DNA from: Odobenus rosmarus divergens
Lineage: Eukaryota > Chordata > Mammalia > Carnivora > Odobenidae
NCBI RefSeq assembly: GCF_000321225.1
Contig: NW_004451412.1
Coordinates: 544,297-608,296, forward strand
Length of the DNA: 64,000 nucleotides
Direction: 5' to 3'
The position numbers and the translations under genes were made by a program. Below, piece after piece: positions 23,422 to 63,160 of this stretch. The number at the start of each line of letters is the position of its first letter. Within the stretch, counting starts at the first letter, position 1. The notes under the pieces are model-generated. The model ran no database searches. It had not been told where the DNA came from and saw only the letters and a list, made by a program, of their open reading frames with translations.

Positions 23422-23500
23422 CCGCAAGCCGTAAAGCGTACCCACCGCACTGGCCGCCGGGATTTGAGAGGCACGGGGTCTCCCGTAATCTTCTGCGTCG
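23422..23500 (-). other. AASDH: AASDH non-coding exon 1 (approximate)
   Basis: Within the CpG-rich block a strong minus-strand donor, TTGCGG|GTAACT, occurs at 23422/23421, about 2.3 kb upstream of exon 2. The transcription start cannot be fixed from sequence; the upper boundary given is arbitrary, just below the CRE. Confidence 0.5.
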
Positions 23501-39500: not shown

Positions 39501-42367
39501 GCTTCCTTCATTAAGTTTTTAATCCTGAAATTAATTAAATAATTGAATGAGTAACTTCAGTTATAAACACATGCAAGACAGAGCTCTTGTTACCAGAGCT
39601 ACGAGCTTAGCCTAGTTTTACAATTACCTTGCTACCCAATCTGGAGTGCCATCTTGTTCCTGAGGAGGGGTATATGCCAGTAACTGGGTAATCATTTCGC
39701 TATCAGAACTTGTTGACAAACCAATACCGTGCCGCAGAAGCTATTTAGAATGGAGAAAAGTGTAATCATTAGAGGGAAAGCTCCACCTGACCCTTCTTTA
39801 CCCAACAGCCCACCATTATACAAAGAAATCAGAAAATCCTGCATTCCACTATTGACATGTATACAGTAATGGAGAAGCACTGCTAGAGGCAATGGGAAGT
39901 CTCTGAAGGTTTTTAAGCAAGAAAAAAAGTGTTCTAGGAAGCATAAAGAATAGCTTTTGAAAACTAAGTTTGAAGGAATGTAGACCTGCAATAAAGGTGG
40001 GGGATAGTAGAGAAGGCACAAGACTTTGGAACTATGATGCTAACATTTTCAGCCCTTGACAATCCTGACCAAGAGGACACATTCCCTTAAGAGTGGTGCA
40101 CTACAGTGGGACCTCTCAAGCCAGGTTTGTTGGTGGTAGTGCTGGTGGCTACCCACCGTCACTGATCATCGCGGATAGAGTAGAATAAGGGAATTAACCA
40201 TATTGAACAACTAAATGTAGAAGATGTAATAAAAATTGGTTGAACACTCTCATGATGATTACGAGGCTCTGAGCAAGACTGACCGGGACAAGAACATCAC
40301 CATTGACATGTACAGGCTGAGTTTAAACTCATACTACACAACATTTTCAGTAGGCAGCTAAATGTGTAGAAGTGAAATCCAGCATCTGGGTAAGGGATTA
40401 TGTCTACAAAGAATGAGCTAGGTATTGTTCAGAATTGAACTTTTGGTGGTTATCTCTAAGTGGGTGAGCTTTTTTTTCATTAATTTTTATTTCATATTTA
40501 TACTTTTCTGATTGTATGAATTAAAAAATTATTTTTTCATTTGGGGGCAAAAAAACATTTTATTATCATTATAACACTAGAGCCCAAGAACAGGGCAGAA
40601 GAAAGCTCTGCGAAATAACTAAAGCTAGAATTGAAAATAAAAGGACAATGAGTGGTATGGAAGCATGGTTCTAGATATTTTCCACACATCAAAATTCACC
40701 ATCATTTGCCTTGTCACTAATTATCCCATGTAAAATGCCTGGTTCTAGAATGCTAAGGAGATAACTGTGTGTAGAACCATCCTGTTAATGAATACCACCT
40801 GAGGTTTTTATTTGCAACATGACCAGATCAAGATCATTAGAATCCAATGGATGGAAGAAACTTGGTATCAATAAATGAATGGCAAGAACAGATAATTAAG
40901 CTATCAGGAATATAAATATACCAAGTAATTTTAAAAAAAGGAAGATGAAATGATGATGAATAAAGGTATAGGCACAAATTAACACAGAATGCTCCAAATG
41001 ACATGCTACGAACAAAGAAGAACCTAAGTAAACTCTCTTTGCCCTTTCTCCAAGTGGTTTCCTGTAATTGTTTCCAAATCATTTTTTCTTATATTTGTTA
41101 TCTTCAAGTTTATATTCTATTTTCTTCTTATGCTTTGAACATAAGGACAAAAGCTAAAGGGATAGGAAGAGTCCATAAACCCTAACTTCTGTTTCTAACA
41201 ACAACCATATATTAACTTTTCCAAATCTCTACCCTAAAGCAGTACCTCAGAATCATCTTAGAAGCATATTAAAATGCTGACTGACCACCATCCCACCCCA
41301 GACTCTGGGGTGATATCTTAGAATCTGCAAGTATAACAGGTACTCCAGGTAATTCTAATACAGTTGTCCTCTGCAGTAAGTAACAGGTGGCAACAATTAG
41401 AAAATATCCTGCACTAAGATCCCCAATAATTTCATTTCATTCATTTATCCCAATCATGATAAGAAGCATTAAAAACACTTACCTTTTTCCTTAATTGAGC
41501 AGCATTTACCAATTCGCCATTATGTGCCACAGCTATTTTCCCATGAAGTGTTTCAACAACAAAGGGCTGACAATTTTCCAATTCACAGTTTCCTGTAGTG
41601 GCGTATCTTGTGTGTCCAATTCCAAGGTTTGAAATATATAATTTCTTCAAATTGTCTTGAGTAAAGACATGATTTACAAGACCCATTCCCTTGCAAAGTC
41701 AAAGTAAAAGCTCATCTTAGAAAAAAAAGACTTGTGGCCCTAGTCAGTAAAGGTTTTTATAAGTTTCTGCTCAGGCAATCCCAAATTAGACAATGCACTT
41801 CACTTAATTCCTCTGTGCTCCAAATTCTAATCTTAAATAAGGACTAACCTAATTGTAAGAACCATAAAACATTTTTAGAAAAAAATGTGAGGTGAAATTC
41901 ACATAACATAAAATTAACCATTTTAAGGTAAACAATTCTATGGCATTTAATACATTCACAATATTGAAGTGCTTGTTTCATGAGATTCTTTTCATTAAAA
42001 CATTGAAGAACAGATGTACTAAACAATAAAATTTGTCGAATATAATCAACTAAATCAATTGCATTTTAAAAATTCAAAGCATGTTAAAATATTTAAGTAA
42101 ATGACCTGTTTCAATGAGTCAGTCTAACAAACTACCACGCGGAAAGAAATGCACCCTCATTTGACAAATGGAAACGGCTGATCAGAGTATGACTTCTATA
42201 TGCAAATTATTTATTCAAATTTCCTTTCCCCACCAACATACGAGTTATCACCTGGCTGTTGTTATCTTTATTATCAACATTTCATTATGTTCAAATATAC
42301 CTTGTGTGTTTTGAATGTTGGTACTGAATTCCCATCGCTGGTCACAATACCAGCACTCTCCTGACCC
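33351..42367 (-). CDS. PPAT: PPAT (amidophosphoribosyltransferase), exons 2-11
   Basis: Spliced on the minus strand: 42367-42301, 41689-41483, 39740-39628, 39524-39379, 38815-38743, 38191-38040, 37411-37284, 36183-35962, 34947-34827, 33547-33351 (stop TAG at 33353-33351). The product transfers the amide nitrogen of glutamine to PRPP to make 5-phosphoribosylamine, the committed step of cytosolic de novo purine synthesis. Visible parts: the glutaminase domain ([25 protein letters not shown]), the phosphoribosyltransferase PRPP loop [12 protein letters not shown], and the cysteines expected to hold the 4Fe-4S cluster (CGLPYV, YPCFMG, HCTAC near the C-terminus). The exons cover residues 44 to the end of a 517-residue family protein. 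The first 43 residues, with the propeptide and the nucleophilic Cys, belong to exon 1, which is not in the window. No lesions are seen. Confidence 0.97.
33691..33891 (+). mobile_element. Can-SINE, 140 bases from PPAT exon 11
   Basis: Target aaaagggggaggggg. It sits in the last PPAT intron, upstream of the exon 11 acceptor. Confidence 0.93.
34827..34947 (-). CDS. PPAT: PPAT exon 10
   Basis: 121 nt, acceptor tccaag|GTACAC and donor CTGG|GTAGGT. It codes for [19 protein letters not shown] to FEHLAKYL; the cysteine is a cluster ligand in the family. Confidence 0.95.
35008..35196 (+). mobile_element. Can-SINE
   Basis: Lies 60 bases from PPAT exon 10 on its upstream side, in intron 9. Confidence 0.92.
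35263..35476 (-). mobile_element. Can-SINE
   Basis: Target ataattgcaattac / ataattacaattac. Confidence 0.9.
35962..36183 (-). CDS. PPAT: PPAT exon 9, PRPP-binding loop
   Basis: 222 nt, phase 0 at both ends, acceptor tatcag|TGTGGG and donor GAG|GTAAGT. It opens with CGLPYVEVL (cluster cysteine) and carries [13 protein letters not shown], the type I phosphoribosyltransferase PRPP motif. Confidence 0.97.
36793..36940 (+). mobile_element. Can-SINE, short subtype
   Basis: Ends ggagcctgcttaaaataaataaat. Confidence 0.9.
37284..37411 (-). CDS. PPAT: PPAT exon 8
   Basis: 128 nt, acceptor cttccag|ACCAAA and donor GGAAAG|GTATTT. It codes for [19 protein letters not shown], then [18 protein letters not shown], which binds in the phosphoribosyltransferase half. 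It ends in phase 0. Confidence 0.96.
37771..37974 (+). mobile_element. Can-SINE
   Basis: Target duplication gaactgccacgtttc; 65 bases from PPAT exon 7. Confidence 0.94.
38040..38191 (-). CDS. PPAT: PPAT exon 7
   Basis: 152 nt, acceptor cccaag|ATATTA and donor TTTGAAG|GTAAAT. It codes for [15 protein letters not shown] and later [14 protein letters not shown], a hallmark of the domain junction. It ends in phase 1. Confidence 0.95.
38743..38815 (-). CDS. PPAT: PPAT exon 6
   Basis: 73 nt, acceptor ttacag|AGAAAA and donor GCAAG|GTAAGT. It codes for [19 protein letters not shown] to SIGA. It is too short to stand out as an open reading frame and was found by splice logic and family sequence. Confidence 0.94.
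39379..39524 (-). CDS. PPAT: PPAT exon 5
   Basis: 146 nt, acceptor tttcag|GATTAA and donor GATAAAG|GTAATG. It codes for [20 protein letters not shown], then [19 protein letters not shown]. It ends in phase 1. Confidence 0.95.
39628..39740 (-). CDS. PPAT: PPAT exon 4
   Basis: 113 nt, acceptor aaatag|CTTCTG and donor GCAAG|GTAATT. It codes for [19 protein letters not shown] to PDWVA and ends in phase 2. Confidence 0.95.
40060..40450 (+). pseudogene. Possible processed-pseudogene remnant, unidentified
   Basis: One frame near 40258-40360 reads [20 protein letters not shown], which looks protein-derived, followed by stops. The parent gene was not recognised. It could be chance. Confidence 0.2.
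41230..41365 (+). mobile_element. MER5-like DNA transposon fossil
   Basis: cctcagaatcatcttagaag, then gactctggggtga and aggtaattctaatac in family order. Confidence 0.6.
41483..41689 (-). CDS. PPAT: PPAT exon 3, glutaminase core
   Basis: 207 nt, phase 0 at both ends, acceptor gcaag|GGAATG and donor AAAAAG|GTAAGT. It carries [19 protein letters not shown] and [15 protein letters not shown], which build the Ntn-type glutamine site. Confidence 0.96.
42301..42367 (-). CDS. PPAT: PPAT exon 2
   Basis: 67 nt, acceptor ttcacag|GGGTCA and donor CACAAG|GTATAT. It completes a split arginine codon and then codes for 22 residues, [12 protein letters not shown] to FKTHK. It is the most upstream PPAT exon present. 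Confidence 0.95.
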
Positions 42368-42519
42368 CTGTGAATATAAAAAGGCATTAACTGTTAAATA
42401 TAAATTTACCTCATTGATAAGCTTCTTTAAGAAGCATACTTTTCTCAAGAGCATCCAGGAACTGACAACACATTACATGCTAGTGCCACTTGACTCATGA
42501 TGATGTGACTAGCAAGCAG

Positions 42520-43938: not shown

Positions 43939-44338
43939 GTCACTTTCAACATGGAGAGTGGAGCAGGAAAGCACTGGACTGAAGAAGAGGTTAAAGCTTT
44001 GCTTAGTGTCTGGGCAGAAAAAAATATACGAGAACAACTTTATGGAACCCTGAGAAATAAAGGAATATTCATTTACATTGCTAAAAGGCTGCAAGCACTA
44101 GGAGTATACAGAGATTGGAAACAGTGCCGGGCAAAGTACAAAAATCTCAAATATGAATACAGAACAGTTAAATATGCTCATAACTCTGGAGACAGCTCTA
44201 AAACTATGAAGTTCTTTCATGATTTGGATGCGATCCTGCAGTATGAACCTGCCACACAATTAACAGAGGAAGATGCAAATGGCAGGTGCCTGGCAACGCT
44301 GAGGCTGAGCGAAAGTGCAGCTCCAGGGACCACTGAAG
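43939..44338 (+). CDS. SANT-array gene, exon with domain 1 (CDS from 43951)
   Basis: The domain spans GKHWTEEEVKALLSVWAEKN to FFHDLDAILQYE. The donor is ACTGAAG|GTAAAA at 44339. A possible 3' splice site, tttccag at 43932-43938, would put a 12-nt UTR before the ATG; otherwise this is the first exon. Reading through the donor adds only KRKK and a stop at 44353-44355. Confidence 0.83.
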
Positions 44339-45634
44339 GTAAAAGGAAAAAGTAGCATTCTTTTGTTTTTACCTAACAAACTGTAAGAGTAGGGACTTCT
44401 GAGTCCATATGATAAACGTAGCCTGGAATATCATGGTTGAGAAAAACAACTGACCTGTTATGCTATTTCGCACAAGGTAAAAATTTTAAAAAAGATTAAA
44501 TACCTCCACTTTTTAAATCCATGAAATACTGAAAAAACACACTAAAATAACATTAACCGCTTAAAAAAAAGGTAACATTAACCACTAATACCAACTCTCC
44601 TTAAGCATGCCTGATACGTTTTTTGGAAAATGGATTGGGTTTCTGAAAATATTTTAGGTTTTAATTTTTTAAGAGTGGCAAAAGAAAAAAAAATCTAATA
44701 TATTGCTCCACTGTTGTTTCTCCACAGCTCCAAACAAGACAGAACTTTCTGCTCTGTATTTACGTTCACATTTTCCTAAATTTATCAATAAAAGCACTAA
44801 AATACTAGGAATTAATAACTTCTTCATTCCTCGTTTGGAAGAACAGTTCCATTTAAACAATCAGTGAAATAAAAATAGATTTGATAGATTAAATGATTTA
44901 TGATTAAATGATTTAGATATTAAAACAAGGTTCTTGACTTGCTGTGTTAAGCCCAACTGTATTTACGTAGAATTTGTTCAGTCTGCAGAAGCTGAATGTA
45001 TCACCAGGGAAAGCGGGGAAATCAGTGGCAGTGATGAGATTTCTCCCATAGCCAAAATCTTACAGATGTTATTTTTAAGAGCAGAGTTGTTCAATTCAAA
45101 ATCTCGAATACCTACTGTCTGCAAAGCAATGAGCTACTTGCACATGAATTCAGTGATGTGTAACCTCAGAAAGTAGGGCACCATGAATAAATGTTACATC
45201 TCAAAGAAAATGGTTTAAGTGGTAGAATATAAGATATCAAATGAGAAAGGGGGTAGGGTAAAATGACAGAAGTTGAAGTTAGGTTAATTTGGTTAATTAG
45301 GTTAATCTGAACTTCGTGTTTAAAGCTCAATAATAAATTAGTAAAAAATCCACTCCACTTAACATACTTCCTTTATGTTTCTGATAACTATACCAAATTC
45401 TGAGAAAGCTTTGCAGTCACTGTCAAGTAAACAGCAATAACATTATTTTATTCAATTAATCATCCTGCACTCTTCATCATTTAAATGCTTTAAATATTGA
45501 TTAATGATAAGTAAACCATTCAGCTTCTGAAAAAGCTTTGAATTTAACCAGAGGTTGGTGTTGCTGTAATTAAGATGTGGGTGCCAATATCTCCACTTTT
45601 TTTGCCCCTCTCTTGTGTCTCTGTGTCTCCTCCT

Positions 45635-45674
<40 letters not shown>

Positions 45675-48600
45675 TGTGTGTGTGTTTAATCTCCACTAAA
45701 CCAGATCTCCTTCTAACCCATTTAAGTACCCCCATGGCTCCAAATTCCCCATTTTCACCTACAAGCAGACGGCCCATAATTACAACTTAACCTTGTATGT
45801 TTAAGGTATCTCAAACCCCAAATTCTAAAACTACACACTCTTCCCTCATTCAAAACTGATCCTCCTACAAATTGCTTCCACCTTACTATCGTTGTATGTC
45901 CAATCACTTAAATGGAAACATTTGAGATACCCTTGACCTTTGGTCAATCACTAAGTCCTTAAAAAAAAAAATCTGACATGTTTCATAAATTTTTTCTCTG
46001 TTCCATTCTCATTACCACCATGCAGAACTTCATCCGTCACATGGAATATTAAGATAACCTCTTAAATGGTGTCCCTACTTTCTAGTCCCTTCCCACATAT
46101 CCACAATGCCACTGGTTGTTATTCTTTAAACTTTTCAAATTATAAAATTGCAAGCATATTAGCATTTTGTTTGCTTTAATAATAATCTTTAAATTATACC
46201 CAGAACTAATTATAATTCAGGATTAAACGTTACTTAATGATTCCATAATATTTGAGTGCATATACCAGAGTTTATATTTGCCCCCTTAGAGAAAGGTGCT
46301 ACAATCAATAACTTTTGTCCATATTTAACATTATTACTTTAGGAGAGACTATCAGAAGTTCAATTATTGGTCAGAAAGGGTATGATTACTTTGAAACAGT
46401 GTTTAAAAAAAACTGCTTTCTAAAAGAATTGTACTTTACTAACAATGAGACTGTCCCTTTTTATAGAGAACTGTGTCATATCAGATCAGAGGATGGGGTT
46501 GAAGTAGGGGAGAGACTTTGCTAATTTAACAAATAATGAAGTATGCCAATTTAATAAACAAATAACTATCTATAATGGTATATGCAATAAATAACTTATT
46601 TTGCATTTGTTTAATTGCTAGCGATATGGAACAGTTTTCTATATGTTTATTTTTACAAATTAACTGTTTGTGTCAACTGTAATTAAGAAATTGCATGATC
46701 TCTTTTGCCTTACAATTCTGGCTGACTTTTATTTGACCTACAGAATTCAAAAGTTTTTAATGTAATCAAATAGTCTTTGATTTAAAAAACAAAGTTTTTG
46801 ATTAAAGTTTTTAATGCAAACAGTCTTTTCTAAGGCTTAGAAAGCCCTCCTTTCTCCAGGTCTGATTCATTTATAATGTCTTCTGGTTTTTCTATGGCGG
46901 AACCAGCAGGATTTTTATTGGTGTATGGTTAACCTTTGAAGAAGGGAAGAAAATGAATGTGCCTTTTCCACTGTTGGGATCAACCTCATGCAAGTGGTAA
47001 GGACAGAGGATCTGGTTCCCTCTGTTAGGCAGCAGGTAGCCTGACTGAGCCTTGGCAAAAGACTCAAATACAAACTCTTAAGAGGCTTCGGGTTCTGGAA
47101 ATTGTAATCATCCTCAACCTCAGAATACCTTTGACCTACTACTGCCACCAAATCACATTCCTTCAGTGACCAAATTTCCACCCTATTTCCCTCCTCTTAC
47201 TTGATACAAATGCATCAGGAGTAATGACTTAAGAGTTTCAGTTTATGGGCGCCTGGGTGCCTCAGTCGTTAAGCGTCTGCCTTCAGCTCAGGTCATGATC
47301 CCAGAGTCGCGCGGGAAGCCTGCTTCTCCCTTTCCCACTGCCCCTGCTTGTGCTCCCTCTCGCGCTGTCTCTCTCAAAAAAAAAAAAAAAAAAATCTAAA
47401 AAAAAAAAAAAGTTTCAGTTTAAAATCTCCAGAGCATAGGACCCTGGCATACAATTTTGGGACTGATGCTAGGAATGATCAACCTAAGAAAAAAAATACC
47501 CCTGAAGAAGTTGGGAAGAGAGCTTTTCTTTTTCACTCTGGACTATATGTTTAGCTCCAGGCTGTTTTCAACAAACATAAAACTAGGCCCTAAGTCAGAT
47601 AACAGAATAGCAAACCATTACCTTTCCTTGCTGTTCTCATGACGCTCACATGTTACATTAACTAGGTATATCATCTTCTTCTCTTAAAGAGAATTCTTAT
47701 GTAACTACAGATTTTTACTTTTCATATTCCCAACTATATGCCATGTGAAAACAGTAATGCTTCCCATATTTTTCACTTGTTATTCTAATTTAAAATAGGA
47801 ATCCCTAATATAATCTTTAAGATGACAAACATTCCTTTTCTTATTCTTTAATGGAATGCCTCTAAATAGTGAATTGTGATTTTAAACGTTCATGCCATTA
47901 AAATCATGCCTAATATTTGATCTCCTAATGTAAAGTTAAATCGAATGCTATTTGTTACTCAGTAAAACAAAATTGAAAAAAACATATGGAAATGATATAA
48001 GATGAATAATAAATCTTTGATTCAGAAAATTACAAAGAGTAATCAAAACGTACTTAACTACCTCCTGATCAGTCTTCAGCCTCACTGTAATTAAGATTCA
48101 TCTTCATGTGCCAACTGAATCCAAAATTCTATGTTGGATTCCTCTGAAAGATGTATTTTAGTTTTTCCTCACTATTACCCTCCTCTTTTGATTACTCTAA
48201 AAAGTAGTCTGTGCCTCATTTTATGGAAAACATTCAAGTCATAAAACCAGGAGATCAAGAGGGGACCGATTTCATTTTTCAAGGTTGGCATGGTTCTTTT
48301 AAATGACACATTCCTTGGTCCATTTAAACATAACTTAGATTAATTTCTGGAAAGTTTAGTATTTACCAATCAGCTAATTATAAAAGATACATTTAAATTT
48401 TAGCTATTTGACCAAATATGCCAATTAAACAAGATTTTCTGATTATCTCATTACAAGACCTGTTTTACACTGCTACTATCATTTACCAAGTGCCTATTAT
48501 GTTAAAGTACCTAAATAACAGAAATAAAGTTTTAAAAATTTTATTTTTAAAAATAATAAATTTTTTTTTCAGAGAGAACACGAGCGTTAAGGGGGGGGTT

Positions 48601-51600
48601 GGGGCAGAGAGAGAGAGAGGGAGAGAGAGAGAAAAGAGAGAGAATCTTAAGCAGGCTTCATGCTCAGTGCAGAGCCTGGTCCAGGACTCCAGGATCTCAC
48701 GACCCTGAGATCGTGACCTGAGCCGAAATCAAGAGTCAGATACTTAACTGACTAGGCCACCAAGGCCACCCCAAGAAAACATCTCATTTGAACATTTCAA
48801 ATCATTCATCTGATTTGAAAACGAACCACAATCATCTCTAGAAACATAAAATCAGCAAACAAATCTAGTGGAAGTTCAAAATAAACCATGTCAATGGATG
48901 GAAGAAATTAAATTTTCTTTATATAGAGAAGTATTAAACCATATTATACTGCTTTATTACAAAATGTGTCTCACGAATCTATAATCCTTCAAGAACATGA
49001 ACAAATTCAGCTCAAGCTCTAGCATTCTGTCATTATTAATTCAATTTTTATTCTCTTTAGAACTTACTCTAAAAGGAATTCTGTTCTCTTTCCAGGCAAA
49101 ATGTCAGTTACATTACAAGATAAGGAAGACCTCTCAGGAAATCCTTTACTTTTGGTTTCTCATATCAGACCAATGGAACTAGGTACAGTATTGTGGGTCA
49201 AAAATACAATGAAACTGATCAAATTCCAAATGAAAAGTAAGATTGGTTTCTAAGAAAAATGCATGATTTTTCCTGATAGAAATGTTGTTTCCCTTTTTTT
49301 ACCAACGTATACTAAAAAAAAATCATTTCTAAAATAAATGATTAACAAAATATAAATTGCCTAGTAATATTAGCCTTCAAATTCACAACCTTTATTCTTT
49401 AAACATAATAGAGAATATAATGGTCAAAATTATACATAGTAGGTGCTTAATATTTAATGAACATGTCACTTTAGCACTCCTGAGGTCTAAGACAAACAGA
49501 ACTCTACATCTGAAAGTAAGTAATATCAAATCAATGAGGTCAAGGATGGTTTTATTCACCCAATTAAAGTTCACCCAATATATATATTATATTCACCCAA
49601 TATAAATCCCCATTTTGCTTCTAAATTTTTACTGAAGGTTGTTAATTCAAGTAAGGAAAAATACTGAAAAGCATTTCAAAACAAAGACATTAAACACACC
49701 ACAAAATAAAAACAGCTCCCTACACTTCAGGTAAATGCTAAAAAGTGTTTTTTAATGACTTACATTATAGATACTGCAGTACCTTTTTATTAAACAAACA
49801 TGAAATCTGAGAAAAACACAAAATAATGTGGTTGTTTAAAAAACCGATATAACTTCAAGTAAAGTCGTTACCATAAAATGAGTTGCAAAACTGTGCTAGA
49901 GATGTAACATAAAGGTACCATGCTAGGATTTCTAAGTGGGGACATTCTGCTGAAGGCATTATGGGATTTCTGACACATTTCCTTGCATTAAAAAAATCTA
50001 ATACTTCACTTAAAATGACATTTGGTCTTTGACCAATGGGACATCTTTTATTTTCATAAGGAGTAAGAAGCACCAGTTGTTATAATGTGACTCTTCCAAC
50101 CCTTTATTCATGAATTGTCTTGGTTCTCAGACCTGACTGCACACTAGAATCATAATCTGGGGATGAGGGGTAGGAGTAACAGCAAAGTAGTCATTTACAA
50201 AAGTTCCCCAGGAGATACTAATATGTAGCCGATGGATCATTAGATTAAAAGAGGAGATAAATTGCTCCCACCGATCCTATCACAAAACAAAAAACAAACA
50301 AAAATTGCCCTCAGTGAGCCACTTTCTGTGTTGCTTTCTACAAGTACTACAAAATTATATATTCAACATTCAATAGATACTGACATACATACCACATACC
50401 AAAGGTGCGGGATGAAGAGTAAGAAATTATAGAAAAAAAAGATGATCAAACGTGACTAATTAAAAACAACTCTTTTAAAGCCAGTTGCTGTCATGGTAAG
50501 AAATAGATTCGGGTTCTGTATTTCATTTCCCCATTAGTTTTAGAGAAAAGCTAAGCTATAATTTGTACTCCATCTCCTATGGAGAAAATTTCTTTGTTTA
50601 CTAAGGTTGCATCCAATTACTTTACTTATCTTGTCTTATGTATGTAACCTATGTACATATCTCTTTCCCTCCCCACCCAATACAGGTAACTCTACATCAA
50701 TTATGGAACCCTCTATTAATCCAACCTTTATTCCAACTATAGCAAATGAAGGAGGAAAACACTGGACTGTGCCAGAAGTCAGGGCTCTAATTGGCATCTG
50801 GTCTGATATAAGTATACAACAACAACTAGAAGGAACAGTGAGAAATAAAAGGATATTTGAACAAATTGCTGCCAAGCTTCAGAAATCTGGAATAGAGAGA
50901 GACTGGAAGCAGTGCAGAACGAAGTACAAAAACTTAAAACATGAATACAAGATTGTAAGAATGGCTCAAGACCAAGGCATAACTAAGAGTATGAAATTTT
51001 TTACTGAGTTGGATGCTATTCTGGGACATAATAAAACAGAAAAATCACAACAATGGGAATTCCAAGATGAAGAACAAGCCACTAGATGTGCCAATGTAAA
51101 AACAGAAGAGGATCAGACAGGTAGGAAGGCAAAGAAAAGTAATCTAAACATCAGGTCACGTCATATGAAAATGTTAGTAGCATGATAACTTGAATACCAT
51201 CTAAGTTAAACAGGCTTCACTATATTCCAAAGCTAAAGGCTGAATTTATCATGAAACAGATTTAATGTATATGCAATCTCCTCCAGAACAAAGAGAATAG
51301 TGCAAAGTTATACATAAGGATGAAATAATATTGATTTCCACAAGTTTAAAAATAGACCAATTTTATTAAAGTAAAACTGCAACTCTAAATGGCAGAAGTT
51401 AAAGCAAGTTTTCATATTAACTGTAGTAAAATTGAGTGAACAGAAAAAGAGCATTAAAGAACTTAGAAAAATAAAAAACCCATGAGAATGTCTTTGAAGT
51501 GTAAGTTCTTCTGGGACACATCATAAAGTTCTTTAAAATGATTTTAACCCAAAGGATTGAGAAACAATACACACAGAGATATGACAGCATGAAATAAACT

Positions 51601-54600
51601 AGATGAGTTCTACACCAAGAGTCAGGAAATCGAAGTTCTAGCTCAGTCTTTGTGGAATCTTGAACCACGTGTCTCCTCTAGACTTGACAAGATGTTCTTA
51701 AAGACCTCTACTAACCATAAAGTTTCTAGATCTTAATATCTGCCTTAAACAATGCAGTCCTAATTCTCAAAGTATGAATGTGTATCTAGGGGAAACGGAG
51801 GCAATGACAGAGAGTTAGGATTGAGAAATGGTGGCAAGAAGTCCTGAAATCTTTCGCTGGTGGAGAAGAAACTGGTCTGCTAGAGAACTATACATCTGTC
51901 CCATTAAAATTAAGATGACTAGTGGTAAAGTCGCCCAACAGCAGCAGCATGATTATGTTCAGACAGTAATTGCTAGAGATACAGCTGACGGTGATTCTAT
52001 CAGTTATGTCAGAAGACCTCGTTAGAGACAACACCAGATAGCTATAGGAATCTAAGACTAAAGATGTTTAAGGGTGGGGAATGTAAGCTAGAGAAAAGCA
52101 AACAACCACAGTATTTAGCATTCAGTATTTTTTTATTTATGTTTAATTTTAAGATTTATTTATTTGACAGAGAGAGAGAGACAGCGAGAGAGGGATCACA
52201 AGCAGGGGGAGTGGGAGAGGGAGAAGCAGGCCCCCTGCTGAACAGGGAGCCCGAAGCGGGGCTCAATCCCCAGACCCTGGGATCATGACCTGAGCCAAAG
52301 GCAGACGGCTTAACTGACTGAGCCACCCAGGTGCCCCCCGGTTTGTTTGTTTGTTTGTTTGTTTAAAGATTTTATTTGAGAGAAAGAGAGAGAGAGAAAA
52401 CAAGAGTGGGGGAGGGGCAGAGGGAGAGAAAGAAGCAGACTACCTACTGAGCAGGGAGCCTGACACAGAGCTTGATCCCAGGATTCTGGAATCATGACCT
52501 GAGCTGAAGGCAGACGCTTCACCGACTGAGCCATTCAGACACCCCCATGAGGTTCACTTTAAAAGGGATAATAACATATTAGAGTTTAAAACACTACCCT
52601 GAAAGTGAATAAAACCAAACCACCATATATCCCACTATATTCACACAGTCATTGCTGGAGATGCAGCTGAAGATGACTTTGTCAGTAATATGTCAGAAGA
52701 CCTAAGACAGGGAGATGTAAAACAAAGTCCTGGTACAGGTAAAACAGTATTTTTTGTTTTTGTGTGTGTGAAAAAATACCTAAGATGTTATTATATGATG
52801 TTGCTATGGACTGAACAGTGTCACCTCTAAAGTCATATCAACATATGTAAGAGCATTTGGAGATGGGGCCTTCGGGAGATAATTAGGTTTAGAGGTCATG
52901 AGGGTGGGAACCTTATTATGGGTTTTATGATTCTATTACATTTGATGTATAATATATAATATAATAAGATGCTATAATAACTAATCTTATAAGGACATAT
53001 ACAAGCTTATGACATTATATGAAGAGTAATACTCATATTTACAAAATACAGAAATGGAAGGTGAAAACTGTTAATGACAGTAACGTTCCCTATAGCTGTG
53101 GTTTTCAGAGTATAGCAGCATCAGCATCATCTGGGAACTCAGGCATGCTCAAGCTTGAGAAACACGGTCCTATGGTTCAGGATACTAAAGGGGTGAAGGA
53201 GAGTTAAGTGCTTTCTATATGATGGTTTGCCTTTTACACAAACCAAAATGAGCAATAGGGGGATCCCCCCAAGCAAAAGCCTAGCTAGCCAACACAGACC
53301 TCGTACATAGTCTTTTAGTTTAAAGCTTCATATAGCCTTGGAAAATGTAAAGATCATATTGATTAACAAACCAGGTAATCAAATTCTCCACACTCTTGGC
53401 AAACTTCTTTGACTTATCAGATACAACAGATTAAAAGCTCAGTGGGAGAAAGGAAAGCTGCTAGAACGGTGAAAGGCAAAAACAGGGAGAAATTAAGGAG
53501 ACTAATTCAATAGGAACATGCAGCTGACTAGGGGTATGATAACAAAGGTCAACAAAACTCTGGGCTCCTAAGGTTTCTCAGGGCATCACAGTAACGACCC
53601 TGACGTTAAAAGTAAGAGTTAAAATCAGATTGTGTTTAATAAGTCAGGATGATTTCAAAGGAAATAATTAAGAACTTTAGCGTTCAGAAGATTTTACCTT
53701 GTTAGTCTTCTGGACTCACTTAAGTACAATACCTCAAGATAATTTTTTATATGTGAAAGGAAAACATTAAGTCAGATATAAACTGACAGGGTTTTTAAAA
53801 ATTGTCTGGTATGTTTATATGTTAATTTGGAATATGTTTAAAAATATGAAACAGGAAATATTTAGTCATTCTAGAAATTAAGCTATTTTAAACTTTCACG
53901 GAAAATAAAAGCAAAGGTATAAACCCACGAGAAGAAATTGATTTTTTAAATTATTTATTTATTAGAAGATTTTACTTTTATGTAATCTTTACACCCAATG
54001 TGGGGCTTGAACTCACAACCCTGAGATCAAGAGTTACATGCTCCACAAACTTAGCCAGCCAGGCACCCCAGGAAAAAAATTAAAATAGGAAAGGACTTTT
54101 GGCACACCTGCAATATACAACTATTGAGGCATAAATCGCCACTCCACTATTAGAAGATTGTTGTATTGAGAAATAAAGATATGGCTATTTATCTTCAGGG
54201 AAAAAATTCACATCAAATATTCTTTCTTTAAAAACAAAACAGGGGCACCTGGGTAAGCTCACTAGGTTAAGTGTCCAACTCTCGATCTCAGCTCAGGTCT
54301 TGATCTCAGGGTCATGAGTTCAAGCCCTGCACTGGGCTCCACGCTGGGCATGGCGCCTACTAAACAAACAAACAAACAAATAAATAAATATAAAAACAAC
54401 ATAATAAACTGATGAACATTCATGTAAAAATAGGTAGAGGTTACTTCATTTTGATTTTATATTTTTACTAATGAAATATTGGAATCTGAGTTGCTATTGC
54501 CCCATATTGTTAACATTGACACTTGGTCATAAAACTGATCTCCCAAAAGTAATTTTTTTTAAAGATTTTATTTATTTATTTGAGAGAGAGAGAGAGAATA

Positions 54601-57600
54601 AGAGATAGCATGAGAGGGAAGAGGGTCAGAGGGAGAAGCAGACTCCCTGCCAAGCAGGGAGCCCGATGTGGGACTCGATCCCGGGACTCCAGGATCATGA
54701 CCTGAGCCAAAGGCAGTCGCCCAACCAACTAAGCCACCCAGATGCCCCAAAAGTAATTTTTTAACCATCTTAAATGTATGCTGTAAGATTCTTACTTTGG
54801 GCACCTGGGTGGCTCAGTCGCTTAAGCGTCTGCCTTTGGCTCAGATCATGATCCCAGGGTCCCGGGATCAAGTTCCGTATTGGGCTCCCTGCTCGGGGCG
54901 GGGGGCGGGGGGGCGGCTTGCTTCTCCCTCTCCGTTCCACTCTGCCTCCTTGTGTTCTCTATCTCTCCGTCAAATAAATAAAATCTTAAAAAAAAAAGAT
55001 TCTTACTTCAAATAAAAATCTAACTGGAGCTGTGGACCCCCTGATTCTAGATAACTAATTAGTTCCCAATTTAGAACTCCTGGAGATTCTGGTCTAGCCT
55101 GTTACAGGATGGGTTCAGGCACCTATATTTTTATAGAAGATCATCAAGCATAGCCAGGATTGAAAACCACAGCTAGGTTGTCAAATTTAGACAGTAAGGC
55201 CAGCAGAGGGCTGAAGAAAATAAAACATAAAATCCGATTTGATTCCCATTTAGGGAAGAAAAATTAGGCAATTCCAATTATCACTTTAAAAAATGCATAA
55301 CTAAGGGCGCCTGGGTGGCTCAGTCGCTTAAGCATCTGCCTTTAAGCTCAGGTCATGATCCAGCCCCGCATCGGGCTCCCTGCTCGCCGGGAAGCCTGCT
55401 TCTCCCTCTCCCACTCCCCCCGCTTGTGTTCCTTCTCTCGCTGTGTCTCTCTCTGTCAAAGAAATAAAAGATTTTATTTATTTCTTTGACAGAGAACACA
55501 AGCAGGGGGAGTGGCAGGCAGAGGGAGAGGGAGCGGCAGACTCCCCACCAAGCAAGGAGCCCAAAGTGGGGCTCGATCCCAGGACCCTGGGATCATGACC
55601 TGAACTGAAGGCAGATGCCCAACCAACTGAGCCACCCAGGCATCCCAGAAATAAATAAAACTTAAAAAAAAAAAATGCATGACTAATGCAATATGAAAGT
55701 AGTTAATCACTGGGAAGAATTACAGAACTCCTGGGCTATGCCTACCTGTTACAATAAGTAAAAAGAAATGGCCCATGAAAATTGAATAACGACTTCTTTA
55801 GATCTAAAATAAATTTATTTTTCTCCCTGCCTGAGGCATAGGCAAGAGATGATAAAAGGAATCAGAAAGTTAGCAGAAAAAGGACTGTCTAAAGAGGAAA
55901 TCTGTGTTTGACAGTCTTGTCAGTTACCTGTCTCTTCTGAGTAAACCTAAAATTGACTTAATTCATTTCTAGTATCAGTTGCTATTTATATGAGATGGAA
56001 TACTTCAGTATCTTCGTATTCTCACAAGTCACTGCTTCCTAGTAGAGGCAGTCAAAGGTAGATCAATTTTGGCTCTGAGGGTTGGAGACAGGCATATATA
56101 TATCCTCTTGGAGGTTACTCTTATCAGCCTAAAAATCGCAAGTGAAAGACTACACTGTTCTTTTAAGAATAATCTTAAAGGGGGGCGCCTGGGTGGCTCA
56201 GTCGTTAGGCGTCTGCCTTCGGCTCAGGTCACGATCCCCCAGGGTCCTGGGATCGAGCCCCGCGTCGGACTCCCTGCTCGGCGGGAAGCCTGCTTCTCCC
56301 TCTCCCACTGTCCCTGCTTGTGTTCCCTCTCTCACTTTGTCTCTCTGTCAAATAAATAAATAGAATCTTAAAAAAAAAAAAAAAAAGAAACCTTAAAGGG
56401 CGCCTGGGTGGCTCAGATGGTTAAGTGACTGCCTTCAGCTCAGGTCATGATCCTGGAGTCCTGGGATCGAGCCCCACGTCGGGCTCCCTGCTCAGTGGGG
56501 AGTCTGCTTCTCCCTCTGACCCTCCCCCCTCTCATGCTCTCTATCTCATTCTCTCTCTCAAATAAATAAATAAAATCTTTAAAAAAAAAAAAGAATAATC
56601 TTAAAACTGTCTTTTCTTTTTGGCTGTGGTAAAATGTATTTCCAAAATTAAAATATTCACTATCCCCACAATTTCACAAAAATTAACAATGTGATGGCCA
56701 GCAGAAAGCATTAAATTATCTATTGTTAGTACCTCAGAGGCTATGCCAAGTTTTTTTTTGTTTTCTCCAATTCATGTATTTCTCCATTTATTTTGGTTTA
56801 TTTGTAACCAAAAATTGGAAATAATTTTCTTTAAAATGAAATATTTAAACAGTTTTCTACATTTTGAATACAATTGGATAATCTTAGCAGTAAAATTATT
56901 ATAAACTAATGCACTTTCATCACATGAACCATAATATTGAGAACCTTTAAATTTTTAACCCAACAGAAGATCCAAGACATTATTGTTAAAATTTCAGAAA
57001 ACTCAAAAATTATAAATGTAAAAAAAAGTTGAGACTTAGGTAAGCTGATAAATTTAAATACAGGCAACTTGGTAATTATAAAGGTATGACTTTTCTAATT
57101 CTTCCTGTTTATATTTTCAGAAACTCTTTAAGAAGCTGTGACATAATAAAGAATACAGAAGCGCCTGGCTGACTTAAGTCAGTAGAGCATGTGGCTCTTG
57201 ATCTCAGGGTTCTAAGTTCGAGCCCCCCATTGGGTGCAGAGATTGCTTAAAAATAAAATCGCAAAAAAAAAATTAAAATTAAAAAAGAATACATATATCT
57301 GGTTTTGTGCCCTGTTCCTGACACAGAGCTTCAAAAACCTTTGGAATTTCCAAAGTGGGTTTCTAGAGCTTCAGGATAGGACTGGTCACCATAAAGACCA
57401 ACCTTGTGATTAAGAGGCTTAGAATTTTAGGCCAGCCTGACCTCTAGCAGGGAAGTAAGTCTGGAGACTGAATTCAGTCATGCGGCCAGCGATTTAATTA
57501 ATCATGCCATAATCAATCATGTCAACAAAAACTTTGGCTTAGAAGAGCTTCCTAGTTGGTGAACACACTGATGAGCTGGGAGAATGACAGGCTCTAATTC

Positions 57601-60600
57601 CACAGAGACCTGGAGGTTCTGTATCTAGGACCCTCTCAGACCTTACCCCATGTGGATTTCCATTTGGTTGTTTCTGAGTTCTATCTTTTTTTTAAGATTT
57701 TATTTTTTTGAGAGAAAGAGAGAGCACAAGAGGAGGGAGGGTCAGAAGGCAAAGAAGACTCCCCACTGAGCAGGGAGCCCAATGCAGGACTCTATCCCGG
57801 GACTCCAGGATCATGACCTGAGCCGAAGGCAGACGCTTAACCAACTGAGCCACCCAGGCACCCTGAGTTCTATTTTTCATAATAAAACTGTCTCCTAGGG
57901 GCGCCTGGGTGGCTCAGTTGTTAAGCGTCTGCCTTCAGCTCAGGTCATGATCCCAGGGTCCTGGGATCTCCCTCCCCCACTCCCCCTGCTTGTGTTCCCT
58001 TTCTCACTGTGTCTCTGTCAAATAAATAAATAAAATCTTAAAAAAAAAAAAAACTGCCTCCTAAGTATAGGGTTTTCCTAAGTTCTATGAGTTGTTCTAG
58101 CAAATGATCAAACCCGAGAGGGTCATGACACCTCCTGAAGTTGTAGCCAGTCAGCTGGAAGGAGGCTAGCATCTGAATAAGGGCAGTGTTGTTGTTTTTT
58201 TTTAAGATTTTTATTTATTTATTTGACAGAGAGAGAGAGAGCAAGAGAGAGAACAGAAGCAGGAGGAGTGGGAGAGGGAGAAGCAGGCTTCCCGCAGAGC
58301 AGGGAGCCCGATGTGGGGCTCGATCCCAGGACCCTGGAATCATGACCTGAGCCGAAGGCAGACGCGTAACGACTGAGCCACCCAGGCGCCCCTGAATAAG
58401 GGCAGTGTTATGGAAGATTGAGCCCTTATAGCTGCAGAGTCTAATGCTAGCTAACTCCAGGTATGAGTGTCAGAAATGAATTGCAGTATACCAGTTGGGA
58501 TAGAAAGAAACATAACAGAAACTAAATGCTTCTCTTTCCTTAAAATATGCTAAATTTAGGGATTTCCACACTGCCACCCTCCAATACGCTATCTTATTGT
58601 CTAGCACTAACTACTCAAAATTTCCACAGAACATCTAATCCCTAAATATTTCTATTTCCCAGAAGTAGGACATGTGCCTGAACCTAGAAGTGATGGTTTT
58701 AGTCACTTAGATAAAATGTTATAAATTCAGATTCTGCTGAAATAAGGTTTGCCAAAGTTTACCTTCGACTTGTGCTCTCCACTGGGGTGAGGGTGGGGGA
58801 AGGGCTTGGGCACGGAAGGAGGTAAGTCTAGTTACAAAAGGGCAACCAGAGGGATCCTTATGGTGTTGGAACTGTGGAGTATCTTGACCTTGATGGTGGA
58901 GACATGAACTTACAAGGTGATAAAATTATTAGAGAACCTAATAAACACATATACACACTCACAGTGAGTACAAGTATAACAGGAACTCTGAATCAGAGGA
59001 GTGAACTGTATCAATGTAATATCCTTGATTATTAAGGTATATTATTAACAAAACGTTACCATTGGAGAAAACTGGACCAAGTGTGAAATGGAACTCTAGT
59101 ATTTCTAAAAACTGCACGTGAATCTACATTTATCTCAATAAAAATTTCAATTTTATAAAACATAACTTATAGGTAGCCTTATGTGGCTCCAAAGTACAAC
59201 CTGTCATTTAAGGTATTGATATTTCTAAAAGCTAAACTTCATTCTAGTCTCACTGTGCAAACATGTCCTTAAAATAAGATCTAGTCCTATCCTAATGTAA
59301 ATCTCCACATACCTATTGCTGCATAGGCTCATGGGCCCCCTAACCACCTCACCTCTTGCCTCACTGGTCTATTAATAATAACCAATGTGTAGTTGTATCT
59401 AGTTTTACAATAATCATTACAAGCAACTGTACAGACAACAGTAACACACACACACAAAAAAATTTTTTTTAAATAATGTCCCAGGCCACCTGGGTGGCAC
59501 AGTCGGTTGTGTCCAACTGTTGGTTTCAGCTGGGGTCTGATCTCATGGTCGTGACATTGAGCTCCTCACGGGGCTCCATGCTCTGCTTCAGTTTCTCTCC
59601 CTCTGGCCCTCCACCTCTCAAATAAATAAATAAATCTTAAAAAAAAAAAAATGTCCCAGTGTATAGGAAAGTACAGCAGGAGTGAAAGAATACTATCATA
59701 GCATTGTGATACTTCAACACCGCAATCCAACATGTGCATGAGGAAGAGCTTTCCCCAAACTACAAACAGCTAACTTGTAAACATTCTATACAATACTACA
59801 CTATGATAAATGCATGTTACATTTACCACACTAAGCACCATCAGTTCCTTTAAATGTTTATTATCTGTCTGCTGTTAACAACTCAACATGAAAATTGCTA
59901 AGACCACTTAATCTTAAGGTCTTTTATCTATTTATGTATACTGCAATAAGGATCATTCTCAGTTACAATGAGGATCAAATGAAAAAGAGATGTAAGAGCT
60001 CTTTGTCAAGCATTAAAATTAAGAAAGACATTATAAAATTGAGTCTAAAAATGCTATCATATTCATGCTCCCAAACAGAGAATACTGTGCCTTGGGACTT
60101 TTAAGGCAGAATACTTCTAAGATTTTGAAAGTGAATCCTACAAAGGCATTTTAAAATTTGGTTAGAGATGACAAATGTTCTTGGCTAAGAGGTTACAGTT
60201 GTTTTTTTTTTTCTAAAGATTGTTTAGAGGGGGAGGAGGGGCTGAGGGAGAGGGAAAGAGAGTCTCAAGCAGACTCCATACTGAGCACAGAGCCCCATGT
60301 GGGACTCGATCTCACAACCCTGAGATCACAACCTGAGCTAAAACCAAAAGAGTCAAATGCTCAACCGACTGTGCCACCCAGGTGCCCCTAGGCTACAGTT
60401 TTGATGCTGGAATCCAACCTTACTAGTTTTTCAGTATAATCTTCAACTGCAAAAGTAAATTTGAGGGCGCCTGGGTGGCTCAGATGGTTATGTGTCTGCC
60501 TTCGGCTCAGGTCATGATCCCAGAGTGCTGGGATCGAGTCCCGCATCGGGCTCCCTGCTCCTTGGGAGCCTCCTTCTCCCTCTGCCTCTCTCTCTCTCTC

Positions 60601-62022
60601 TCTGTGTCTCTCATGAATAAATAAATAAAATCTTTAAAAAAAAAAAAGTAAATTTGAGTTCTGTGAACAGCAAATTTAAGCTGCTATTCTCTTTGTTTTC
60701 TGACAGAGATACCATACCAAGATACCATAAGTACAGCCTCAGAAGAAGTGGGCGGCTCCAAAGCACCACAAAGTATCACTGTGTCAGGTACAGGGTGTAA
60801 ATTGTCTAAAAAATGTTTTAGGGGCAACTGGGTGGCTCAGTCAGTTGAGCATTGGACTCCTGATCTCAGCTCAGGTCTTGATCTCAGGGTGGTGAGTTCA
60901 AGTCCTGCGTAGGGTTCCACACTGGGAGTGGAGCCTACTTAAAAAAGAAAAAAAAATTTTAGGCTAATATACACCAGTTTAAGTAGATACACCAAGATTC
61001 TGCACATTTGTAAATATCCAATGAAGATACCTATTGATGAAAAGCAGCTAAATTATCTCACCAATACTGGAGATTAGTCTGCCTTTAATTTTTTTAATAT
61101 CTTATCTGAATATGAACATAAGAAGAAATTTTGACCCTCATATTGAAATTATTGTAATCTCAGTGCGTTATGTCAATCCAGGTTGTTTTAAATGAATGAT
61201 ATTTAATAAGATTTATCTGTAAGTTTGTATAACTGTAAATCAAATTGATTTATAGGTAATCATATTCCTTTTGAAGATGCTAAAAATCATTTACAGATTG
61301 TAACAGTGAGCGACACAGAGGCTGGAAAACACTGGTGTGACAATGAGGTCAGAGCGCTTATACACATATGGTCTGATGAAAAAATTAAGCAAATGCTTGA
61401 AAGGGCCACAAGAAACAAAGAAATATTTGAGGAAATTGCCAGAAGACTAATGCAGTTTGGAATAGACAGAGACTGGAAACAATGTCGTACCAAATACAAA
61501 AATTTAAAATATGAATACAGAGTTTTACAAAAGAAAAATGGCAACCCTCAAAGAAAAATGAGATTTTATGAAGAAGTTGACTGCATCCTAAGAGGACCAA
61601 CTCTCAGAACTGCCAAATGGAAACATGGTAACCTTGAAATTGACTTTTTAAAATAAAAATTCTATTAAGTTTTTTCTTTGCATTGTAATGTAGCAAGAGA
61701 TTCCTCAAAAATAAAATCCTTACACTATTGTATGTTCAAATGACCCAAAAAATTATTATGAAGCACATACCTAATTTAAGAATTTCAATCTTTCCAAACC
61801 TTGTACCAAAACATTCTTAATTCTTAAACTCATTCTTCTTTATCTGCCCAACCACCACTTTAATGTTTTTACTTCAATGTACTTGAATGCTTGAAGATGA
61901 ATATATTTTAAATGATGTCATATAATGATTCTTTTCCTGTGTTCTTTTGTTTTAAGAATTATTTGAAGGTCATACCAAAAACCCAAGAACTTTGAGCGTC
62001 AAAAGAAAAGCACACGAAGATG
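43951..62022 (+). CDS. Multi-domain Myb/SANT-like (trihelix-type) DNA-binding protein, antisense to PPAT; continues past the right edge
   Basis: Six exons join in one open frame of about 477 codons: 43951-44338, 50686-51120, 52649-52738, 60707-60787, 61256-61627, 61957-62022. All internal junctions are phase 1 with GT-AG borders, and every joined codon is sense. Exons 1, 2 and 5 each encode a domain of about 90 residues beginning GKHW and containing an RDWKQCR.KYKNLK.EY block, then an aromatic-rich end (KFF..LDAIL or RFYEEVDCIL). This matches the Myb/SANT-like DNA-binding domain found in trihelix-like proteins and in ZSCAN20/29. The linkers are acidic with Lys-rich patches (KRKAHED), which suggests nuclear action. 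The start ATG has a strong Kozak context (A at -3, G at +4), with an in-frame TAG 54 bases upstream. No zinc finger, SCAN or transposase domain is visible inside the window. I do not recognise a named gene. Confidence 0.82.
44971..45159 (+). other. Possible additional phase 1-1 exon of the SANT-array gene
   Basis: After atttacgtag an open frame reads EFVQSAEAECITRESGEIS, then GSDEISPIAKILQ, an acidic linker-like peptide. A weak donor (GATGT|GTAACC) at 45160 would make it 189 nt and phase 1-1 like its neighbours. The later half looks less protein-like. It is optional: exon 1 joins exon 2 in frame without it. Confidence 0.25.
45628..45687. repeat. (TC)n/(TG)n microsatellite
   Basis: A long CT run of about 20 dinucleotides followed by cgtgtgtgtgtgtg. 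It makes spurious open frames of alternating residues on both strands. Confidence 0.95.
46100..46910 (-). mobile_element. Old L1ME-like remnant
   Basis: Antisense text such as ttattggtcagaaagggtat and ttttaatgtaatcaaatagt. Open frames here are chance. Confidence 0.55.
47247..47410 (+). mobile_element. Can-SINE with internal deletion
   Basis: Target agagtttcagttta / aaagtttcagttta. It is the first SINE after about 9.3 kb with none. Confidence 0.92.
48560..48772 (-). mobile_element. Can-SINE
   Basis: Diverged; GA-rich centre. Confidence 0.85.
50100..50235 (+). mobile_element. MER5-like fossil
   Basis: ttggttctcagacctgactg at the start, ccccaggagatactaat further on. Confidence 0.5.
50686..51120 (+). 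CDS. SANT-array gene, exon with domain 2
   Basis: 435 nt (a multiple of 3). A strong pyrimidine-rich acceptor, cccaatacag|GTAACT, precedes it, and the donor is GACAG|GTAGGA. A short linker (NSTSIMEPSINPTFIP) leads into GKHWTVPEVRALIGIWSD and ERDWKQCRTKYKNLKHEY, followed by an acidic, Gln/Glu-rich linker. Confidence 0.83.
51967..52030 (+). pseudogene. Probable decayed duplicate of SANT-gene linker exon 3
   Basis: After an AG (ttcagacag) the sequence TAATTGCTAGAGATACAGCTG parallels the exon at 52649 (TCATTGCTGGAGATGCAGCTG), and further on both contain GTCAGAAGACCT. Read in phase 1 it gives VIARDTADGDSISYV, RRPR and then a stop; a 2-base loss relative to the intact exon shifts the frame. No good donor follows. 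Confidence 0.55.
52147..52339 (-). mobile_element. Can-SINE
   Basis: Together with the next copy it separates the decayed from the intact linker exon. Confidence 0.93.
52340..52364. repeat. (GTTT)n simple repeat between two SINEs
   Basis: Five to six GTTT units. It is the expanded A-rich tail (minus orientation) of the SINE at 52364-52546. Confidence 0.85.
52365..52546 (-). mobile_element. Can-SINE
   Basis: Same orientation as its neighbour, with a GTTT-expanded tail; ends 103 bases before linker exon 3. Confidence 0.92.
52649..52738 (+). CDS. SANT-array gene, small linker exon 3
   Basis: 90 nt, acceptor attcacacag|TCATTG and donor GGTACAG|GTAAAA. With the split base it reads VIAGDAAEDDFVSNMSEDL, then RQGDVKQSPGT. 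It is acidic and low in complexity, like an inter-domain spacer. A decayed look-alike lies about 680 bases upstream. Confidence 0.7.
52795..52930 (+). mobile_element. MaLR-type (MLT1) LTR fragment
   Basis: ttgctatggactgaacagtg, tggggccttcgggaga and gtcatgagggtgggaacc. LTR only. Confidence 0.7.
53942..54070 (-). mobile_element. Old tRNA-type Can-SINE
   Basis: Reverse of the old subtype: cccaatgtggggcttgaact ... agccagccaggcacccc. Confidence 0.82.
54242..54395 (+). mobile_element. Can-SINE, short subtype
   Basis: Tail of (AAAC)n and (AAAT)n. Confidence 0.88.
54553..54748 (-). mobile_element. Can-SINE
   Basis: Target caaaagtaatttttt. Confidence 0.93.
54799..54998 (+). mobile_element. Can-SINE with G-rich insertion
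   Basis: Target aagattcttactt. An unusual ggggcggggggcggggggg run lies near 54896-54914. Confidence 0.92.
55305..55672 (+). mobile_element. Can-SINE split by an opposite-strand copy
   Basis: Outer target aaaaatgcataacta / aaaaatgcatgacta. Confidence 0.92.
55469..55646 (-). mobile_element. Can-SINE nested in reverse orientation
   Basis: Target agaaataaa. With the outer copy it makes a near-perfect inverted repeat. Confidence 0.92.
56179..56387 (+). mobile_element. Can-SINE, first of a tandem pair
   Basis: The pair is bounded by aagaataatcttaaa at both outer ends. Confidence 0.93.
56398..56592 (+). mobile_element. Can-SINE, second of a tandem pair
   Basis: Same strand as the first and 10 bases away. 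Confidence 0.93.
57161..57286 (+). mobile_element. Old tRNA-type Can-SINE
   Basis: Readable agtagagcatgtggctct and B-box-like aagttcgagcccc; target aaagaata. Confidence 0.85.
57686..57873 (-). mobile_element. Can-SINE
   Basis: Target ctgagttctat. Confidence 0.92.
57898..58051 (+). mobile_element. Can-SINE with central deletion
   Basis: Lacks the usual agccccgcatcgggctccctg segment; target ataaaactgtctccta / aaaaactgcctccta. Confidence 0.92.
58194..58392 (-). mobile_element. Can-SINE
   Basis: Target duplication gaataagggcagtgtt. Confidence 0.94.
58830..59160 (+). mobile_element. Old L1M 3' end
   Basis: Sense text: gttaccattggagaaaactg, cacgtgaatctacatttatc, tcaataaaaatttcaa. Confidence 0.7.
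59484..59651 (+). mobile_element. Can-SINE
   Basis: Target aataatgtcccag / aaaaatgtcccag. Confidence 0.9.
60200..60388 (-). mobile_element. Can-SINE
   Basis: Target ggttacagttgtttt / ggctacagtttt. Confidence 0.9.
60465..60647 (+). mobile_element. Can-SINE, 59 bases upstream of linker exon 4
   Basis: Exact target aaaagtaaatttgag. Confidence 0.94.
60707..60787 (+). CDS. SANT-array gene, small linker exon 4
   Basis: 81 nt, acceptor tttctgacag|AGATAC and donor GTGTCAG|GTACAG. It reads EIPYQDTISTASEEVGG, then SKAPQSITVS. It is flanked by SINEs on both sides but contains none. Confidence 0.7.
60821..60957 (+). mobile_element. Can-SINE, short subtype, just after linker exon 4
   Basis: Target aaaaaatgtttta / aaaaaattttag-like. 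Confidence 0.87.
61256..61627 (+). CDS. SANT-array gene, exon with domain 3
   Basis: 372 nt, acceptor gatttatag|GTAATC and donor AACATG|GTAACC. A 20-residue lead (NHIPFEDAKNHLQIVTVSD) precedes GKHWCDNEVRALIHIWSD, DRDWKQCRTKYKNLKYEY and FYEEVDCIL. The frame is open from the acceptor, so the GTG at 61306 is not the start. Reading through the donor ends at TAA 61654-61656. Confidence 0.83.
61652..61657 (+). terminator. Possible intronic polyadenylation signal overlapping a read-through stop
   Basis: AATAAA overlaps the TAA that ends read-through of domain-3 exon 5. A transcript ending here would give a shorter three-domain protein with tail NLEIDFLK. This is sequence-based only. Confidence 0.3.
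61957..62022 (+). CDS. SANT-array gene, small basic exon 6 (last in window)
   Basis: 66 nt, acceptor tgttttaag|AATTAT and a near-perfect donor GAAGATG|GTAAGA. It reads ELFEGHTKNPRTLSVKRKAHED; KRK could be part of a nuclear localisation signal. The phase 1 donor implies at least one more exon beyond 64 kb or unseen in the last 2 kb. Confidence 0.7.
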
Positions 62023-62669: not shown

Positions 62670-63160
62670 TAGTTGAAGAGCTTAATTTTTACAAAATGAA
62701 CACACCCATGAAACTACCACTCAAATCAAGACATAAAACATTACACCAGCACCCTTCAGGCCTCCCAGTCATAATCATCTTCCTAACCTCTATAAAGGTT
62801 ATGATTATTTTGACTTCTATCACCACAAATTTGGAATCATATAAGATGTTCTTACATTTTTGGTATGTGTTCTTTAATGTCATGCTTCTTTCACTGAACA
62901 CTGAGATTCAACCATGCTATTACTTGTAGTAGGAGCTTGCTCTTTTTCACTGTAGAATATTCCATTATATGAATATACATACCACTACTTTCTTTAACCA
63001 TTCCACTGTTGGACATTTCCATTATTTCCAGATGGGGCTATTATAAATAACGCTATAAAAATTCTTGTGCATGTCTTCCAGTAAACATATGTATGCATTT
63101 CTGTAGAGTATACACCCAAGAGTGGGATGGAGGGTCATGGGGTATGCATATATCCAGGTA
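62670..63160 (-). mobile_element. Old L1M remnant
   Basis: Antisense text: tagaatattccattatatga, attataaataacgctataaa, aacatatgtatgcatttctg. The frames here are chance. Confidence 0.7.

Follow-up and report, generated by a model that had tools for sequence, protein, structure and literature searches.

A probable antisense gene with three Myb/SANT-like modules within PPAT intron 1 of Odobenus rosmarus divergens

The stretch of Odobenus rosmarus divergens DNA analysed here (64,000 nucleotides (nt), hereafter the window; NCBI RefSeq assembly GCF_000321225.1, contig NW_004451412.1, positions 544,297 to 608,296, forward strand) raises the question of whether a series of plus-strand exons, lying opposite the purine-synthesis gene PPAT, makes up a functional gene or the remains of one. 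As judged from the sequence, the locus is probably a genuine protein-coding gene, shaped by selection, that lies within PPAT intron 1 on the opposite strand. Its product is a predicted nuclear DNA-binding protein with three putative trihelix modules, and it would thus be a probably functional nested gene of a known domain family, distinguished by its uncommon arrangement of three domains. A preliminary description had proposed six exons separated by GT-AG introns and sharing one open frame of about 477 codons, with intact Myb/SANT-like domains in three of the exons. All six are present in the sequence, together with the domains assigned by Pfam, as listed below.

43951..44338, plus strand: exon 1 (388 nt), the first coding exon as proposed, carrying domain D1
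50686..51120, plus strand: exon 2 (435 nt), carrying domain D2, with a good acceptor and a good donor
52649..52738, plus strand: exon 3 (90 nt), a linker predicted from splice grammar and frame, with a weak acceptor
60707..60787, plus strand: exon 4 (81 nt), a linker predicted from splice grammar and frame
61256..61627, plus strand: exon 5 (372 nt), carrying domain D3, with a weak acceptor and a weak donor
61957..62022, plus strand: exon 6 (66 nt), predicted from splice grammar and frame, with the basic stretch VKRKAHED
43969-44235, plus strand: domain D1, Pfam, in exon 1
50757-51020, plus strand: domain D2, Pfam, in exon 2
61327-61581, plus strand: domain D3, Pfam, in exon 5

Joined from 43951 to 62022, the plus-strand exons amount to 1432 nt, corresponding to 477 codons plus one base, and the single frame proposed earlier was found to run through them with no stop; the other two frames of the joined sequence contain many stops. 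The five introns are all GT-AG and in phase 1, and the donor following exon 6 is likewise in phase 1. The proposed start codon at 43951 stands in the context AAC ATG G. The search with the Myb_DNA-bind_4 profile (PF13837) that the preliminary description had suggested was run, and all three domains exceeded its curated threshold of 27 bits: in single-exon Pfam searches, D1, D2, and D3 reached 68.5, 73.6, and 70.6 bits (E-values 7e-19, 1.8e-20, and 1.5e-19), covering positions 2-89, 2-89, and 2-87 of the 89 in the profile, respectively, which places them within the family as defined. Matches so far above the cut-off cannot be due to chance in exons 1, 2, and 5. The joined protein scored 191.3 bits against PF13837 (E 3.4e-57), and two further Myb/SANT-like families, PF10545 and PF12776, also exceeded their own cut-offs, more weakly. 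Myb/SANT-like families were the only ones above a Pfam cut-off in the 477 amino acids, with no SCAN domain and no zinc finger; the zinc-finger model PF21816 gave 12.8 bits against a cut-off of 27.2 in a protein whose 3' end is open, so that further exons are possible. The observation of six joined exons with three domains is confirmed. A search of the window for a fourth, decayed domain (blastn with the six exons, tblastn with the joined protein) revealed none, the leftover matches (E of 0.004 or higher in blastn and of 0.25 or higher in tblastn) being taken for chance.

Conservation among the three domains is concentrated in their longest helix, from RDWKQCR to EY, where 15 of 17 columns are invariant in D1-D3 compared with 26 of 71 elsewhere in the domain. 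The corresponding stretches are:

44110..44160, plus strand: helix segment conserved in D1, RDWKQCRAKYKNLKYEY, located by aligning D1 with the D2 model
50898..50948, plus strand: helix segment conserved in D2, RDWKQCRTKYKNLKHEY, residues 71-87 (the modelled helix spans residues 73-95)
61468..61518, plus strand: helix segment conserved in D3, RDWKQCRTKYKNLKYEY, located by aligning D3 with the D2 model

The preliminary description had regarded the domains as selected rather than neutral, and comparison of the paralogues upholds this for past purifying selection. Identical residues number 53 of 90 between D1 and D2, 44 of 89 between D1 and D3, and 52 of 88 between D2 and D3, and in each pair the third codon positions differ most. 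The ratios of nonsynonymous to synonymous substitution (dN/dS), calculated over 88-90 aligned codons per pair, were 0.25 for D1-D2 (bootstrap range 0.09-0.48), 0.23 for D1-D3 (0.11-0.47), and 0.10 for D2-D3 (0.08-0.30; here dS was capped). Purifying selection thus acted on the domains as they diverged, and between paralogues this is selection in the past. Recent gene conversion was considered as the source of the shared RDWKQCR.KYKNLK.EY motif and rejected: in this stretch synonymous differences amount to 0.70-0.76 per site, with about 7 of the 9-10 synonymous sites differing in each pair and only 2-3 nonsynonymous differences. Since the synonymous sites are highly diverged and the residues near-invariant, the helix was preserved by selection at the protein level and not by recent gene conversion.

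Past selection is also what would be expected of a gene that died recently or is dying, one that was under selection until not long ago and has since lost its expression, with frames still intact for want of time. The age of the open frame was approached by simulating neutral decay (2000 runs, assuming one indel per eight substitutions and nine-tenths of indels frame-breaking). At 1% divergence the six exons remained intact in 9% of simulated loci and the three domain exons alone in 15%, which is compatible with a recent death; the corresponding values fell to 0.9% and 2.1% at 2%, to 0.2% and 0.15% at 3%, and to 0 for both at 5%. With indels left out, the six exons were intact in 1.75% of runs at 5% divergence and the domain exons open in 3% at 6.8%. 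These divergences can be set against those of the short interspersed nuclear elements (SINEs) of the window, whose many short repeats resemble what we take to be the tRNA-derived SINEs of carnivores from the group containing bears, seals, and weasels. Among 36 matches covering at least 130 query bases, 13 lie inside the gene span (47247-60595), all of them intronic, and differ from the consensus of the 36 by 3-17%, with a mean of 9.9%, or 6.8% outside CpG-like sites. The SINE-free state of the exons is uninformative in itself, as 13 copies have roughly a one-in-three probability of missing them by chance. Because simulated frames mostly break by 2-3% divergence, compared with the SINE mean of 6.8%, a long neutral past of the locus is unlikely, while a short one is possible. 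The weak splice sites of exons 3 and 5, a degraded exon 3 duplicate within intron 2, and the lack of a CpG-rich window near exon 1 speak for a dying gene, but the 1432-nt frame is intact and, at the assumed indel rate, no more than 0.2% of simulated loci would be so at 3% divergence, compared with the 6.8% mean of the intronic SINEs. We therefore consider a recently dead gene unlikely.

Several features weigh against a functional six-exon gene. Exons 3, 4, and 6 are domain-free, and splice grammar and frame are what support them. According to a crude splice matrix, the acceptors of exon 3 (-0.66, at the 85th percentile of the AG sites of the window) and exon 5 (-4.22, at the 61st) are weak; with a score of 1.0, at the 93rd percentile, the donor of exon 5 is poor as well. 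A scan for phase-1 exons over 18.5 kb, with thresholds of at least 2.0 for the acceptor and at least 1.5 for the donor, would retain exon 4 but neither exon 3 nor exon 6, and the frame is still open at 62022. On the same matrix exon 2 scores 5.79 (acceptor) and 5.2 (donor), exon 4 has the highest of the five acceptors (7.8) with a modest donor (1.66), and the exon 6 donor at 62022 scores 4.31. For comparison, ten acceptors of PPAT score between -4.42 and 8.76; each was chosen as the best-scoring AG close to a tblastn end, so that some of them are uncertain. The 18.5-kb scan also returned two extra phase-1 candidates, 49096-49236 and 63082-63141, which are unrelated, show no known likeness, and were not adopted; an earlier, more stringent scan that covered the introns, the 3' flank, and two control stretches returned no extra exons.

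It has also to be asked whether the exons belong to one gene or to two or three transcripts, producing single-domain proteins through intron retention or separate promoters. Exons 1 and 2, if read through, end at stops at 44353-44355 and 51183-51185, respectively, with ATTAAA or AATAAA within 300 nt, though such hexamers are common in AT-rich DNA; an ATG with A at -3 and G at +4 is found at 43951 and again within exon 2; and the shared phase of the domain exons stems from duplication and is no proof of joining. On the other hand, exon 5 contains no ATG before D3, so that it needs an upstream exon, and the acceptor and donor of exon 2 would be superfluous in a single-exon gene. Separate transcripts are, on balance, quite unlikely. 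A further possibility, that PAICS is transcribed on this strand from a distant promoter and uses these exons as alternative upstream ones, is highly improbable. In its favour, the strand is the one expected, PPAT and PAICS diverging from a shared promoter, and the open frame ends on the good donor at 62022. Against it, two in-frame ends with downstream AATAAA or ATTAAA lie within the window, and the Pfam search of the 477 amino acids, in which PAICS itself was not sought, passed Myb/SANT-like families only.

A functional gene encoding all three domains remains the favoured interpretation, and its ends may differ from those proposed. The frame is also open 5' of the ATG (43900-43950), where NHFQV compares with NHLQI at the start of exon 5; owing to this likeness exon 1 may have originated as an internal exon, or the start of the gene may lie further left, and the true 5' end may thus lie at another position than the proposed ATG. 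At the 3' end, if the exon 6 donor is left unused, reading on gives a protein of 488 amino acids. An alternative end, and the decayed copy of exon 3, are as follows:

61628..61656, plus strand: rival 3' end by read-through of exon 5 (TAA at 61654-61656; AATAAA at 61652 and 61710), giving 464 amino acids
51969..52019, plus strand: decayed partial copy of exon 3 in intron 2 (blastn, 83% over 53 alignment columns with a 2-nt gap)

The likeness of this copy to exon 3 seems to begin near 51960, with a weak tblastn match at 51960-52004, and the copy provides a contrast by illustrating what an unselected exon looks like at this locus.

The setting of the gene was mapped by tblastn with a PPAT protein sequence. 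Residues 42-517 match in ten minus-strand pieces, from 42372 down to 33354, the first of which bounds the host intron on its left and is followed by the other nine:

42301..42372, minus strand: PPAT exon 2, residues 42-65 (tblastn)

The gene (43951-62022) lies on the strand opposite PPAT and upstream of this exon. PPAT residues 1-41 gave no credible match in the 64-kb window (a single chance match, residues 21-40, E 7.9), and for this reason PPAT exon 1 would lie beyond 64 kb. Of the nesting claimed in the preliminary description, the opposite strand, the position upstream of exon 2, and the lack of an exon 1 match within the window all hold, while the location of exon 1 beyond the window is an inference; the locus is probably antisense within PPAT intron 1, and that earlier interpretation as a whole is partly supported. 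Further left, minus-strand frames read like what is presumably AASDH. Beside these, positions 23001-23500 have a G+C content of 0.53 and a CpG ratio of 0.64 and are perhaps the AASDH promoter; the sole run of Ns in the window (104) occupies 15631-15734. The surroundings in ruminants are documented in published tables: a goat gene list gives 'PPAT, LOC102176867, PAICS', LOC102176867 being a bare name in a table for an annotated but unnamed locus (PMC5348779), a cattle table gives AASDH, PPAT, and PAICS with nothing between (PMC7764440), and a sheep table, not in positional order, includes an unnamed Ensembl gene of the region, ENSOARG00020029379 (PMC12267044). Given the goat locus in this position, automatic annotation may already contain this gene.

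In the favoured interpretation, the PF13837 modules would have arisen by duplication of phase-1 exons, and the six exons would be joined into one mRNA encoding three modules, each with a near-identical basic recognition helix. Because the modules carry nearly the same helix, the predicted protein would most likely recognise a single short motif present in clustered or repeated copies, and it may act in the nucleus as a transcription or chromatin factor. The bolder proposal that it reads three motif copies at once, and that overlapping transcription or direct binding ties it to the control of PPAT and PAICS, is doubtful. If expressed, it would represent an apparently unstudied mammalian DNA-binding protein, unusual in that one presumed recognition helix is repeated three times, encoded inside an intron of a central metabolic gene.

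We know of no named protein of mammals in which three such domains occur together. Literature searched by phrase for the three-domain layout yielded plant, fungal, and fly subjects together with the goat paper (PMC5348779). With two short peptide patterns per scan, IMG/VR gave 48 matches and GTDB genomes 38, none confirmed by tblastn; these are viral and prokaryote contigs and are silent on vertebrates. The symbol of MSANTD7 presumably points to a Myb/SANT domain. The human protein (A0A1W2PQ72) is reported to be enriched at DNA damage lesions (PMC12632626); its locus is another, since a table gives MSANTD7 as an alias of HSPA14 (PMC11242833). In the predicted protein, with its open 3' end, no SCAN or zinc-finger family was above cut-off in the 477 amino acids. 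In this, unless further 3' exons supply them, it would differ from the ZSCAN20/ZSCAN29 group, which is defined by a SCAN domain and C2H2 zinc fingers with SANT domains. ZSCAN20, ZSCAN29, and UTF1 are also SANT-domain proteins in mammals, ZSCAN20-like having at least two SANT domains (PMC3706607). The best solved match, both by sequence and by structure, and the closest solved fold is the plant trihelix factor GT-1, which the modules appear to resemble in being helical and in ending on a long basic helix; its solved domain matches one module with 28% identity, whereas the predicted mammalian protein has three. As to origin, a Harbinger Myb-like protein is a possible ancestral source. Harbinger-like elements are absent from mammalian genomes according to PMC9179366, which describes their Myb-like protein as likewise a tri-helix Myb/SANT-like DNA-binding protein.
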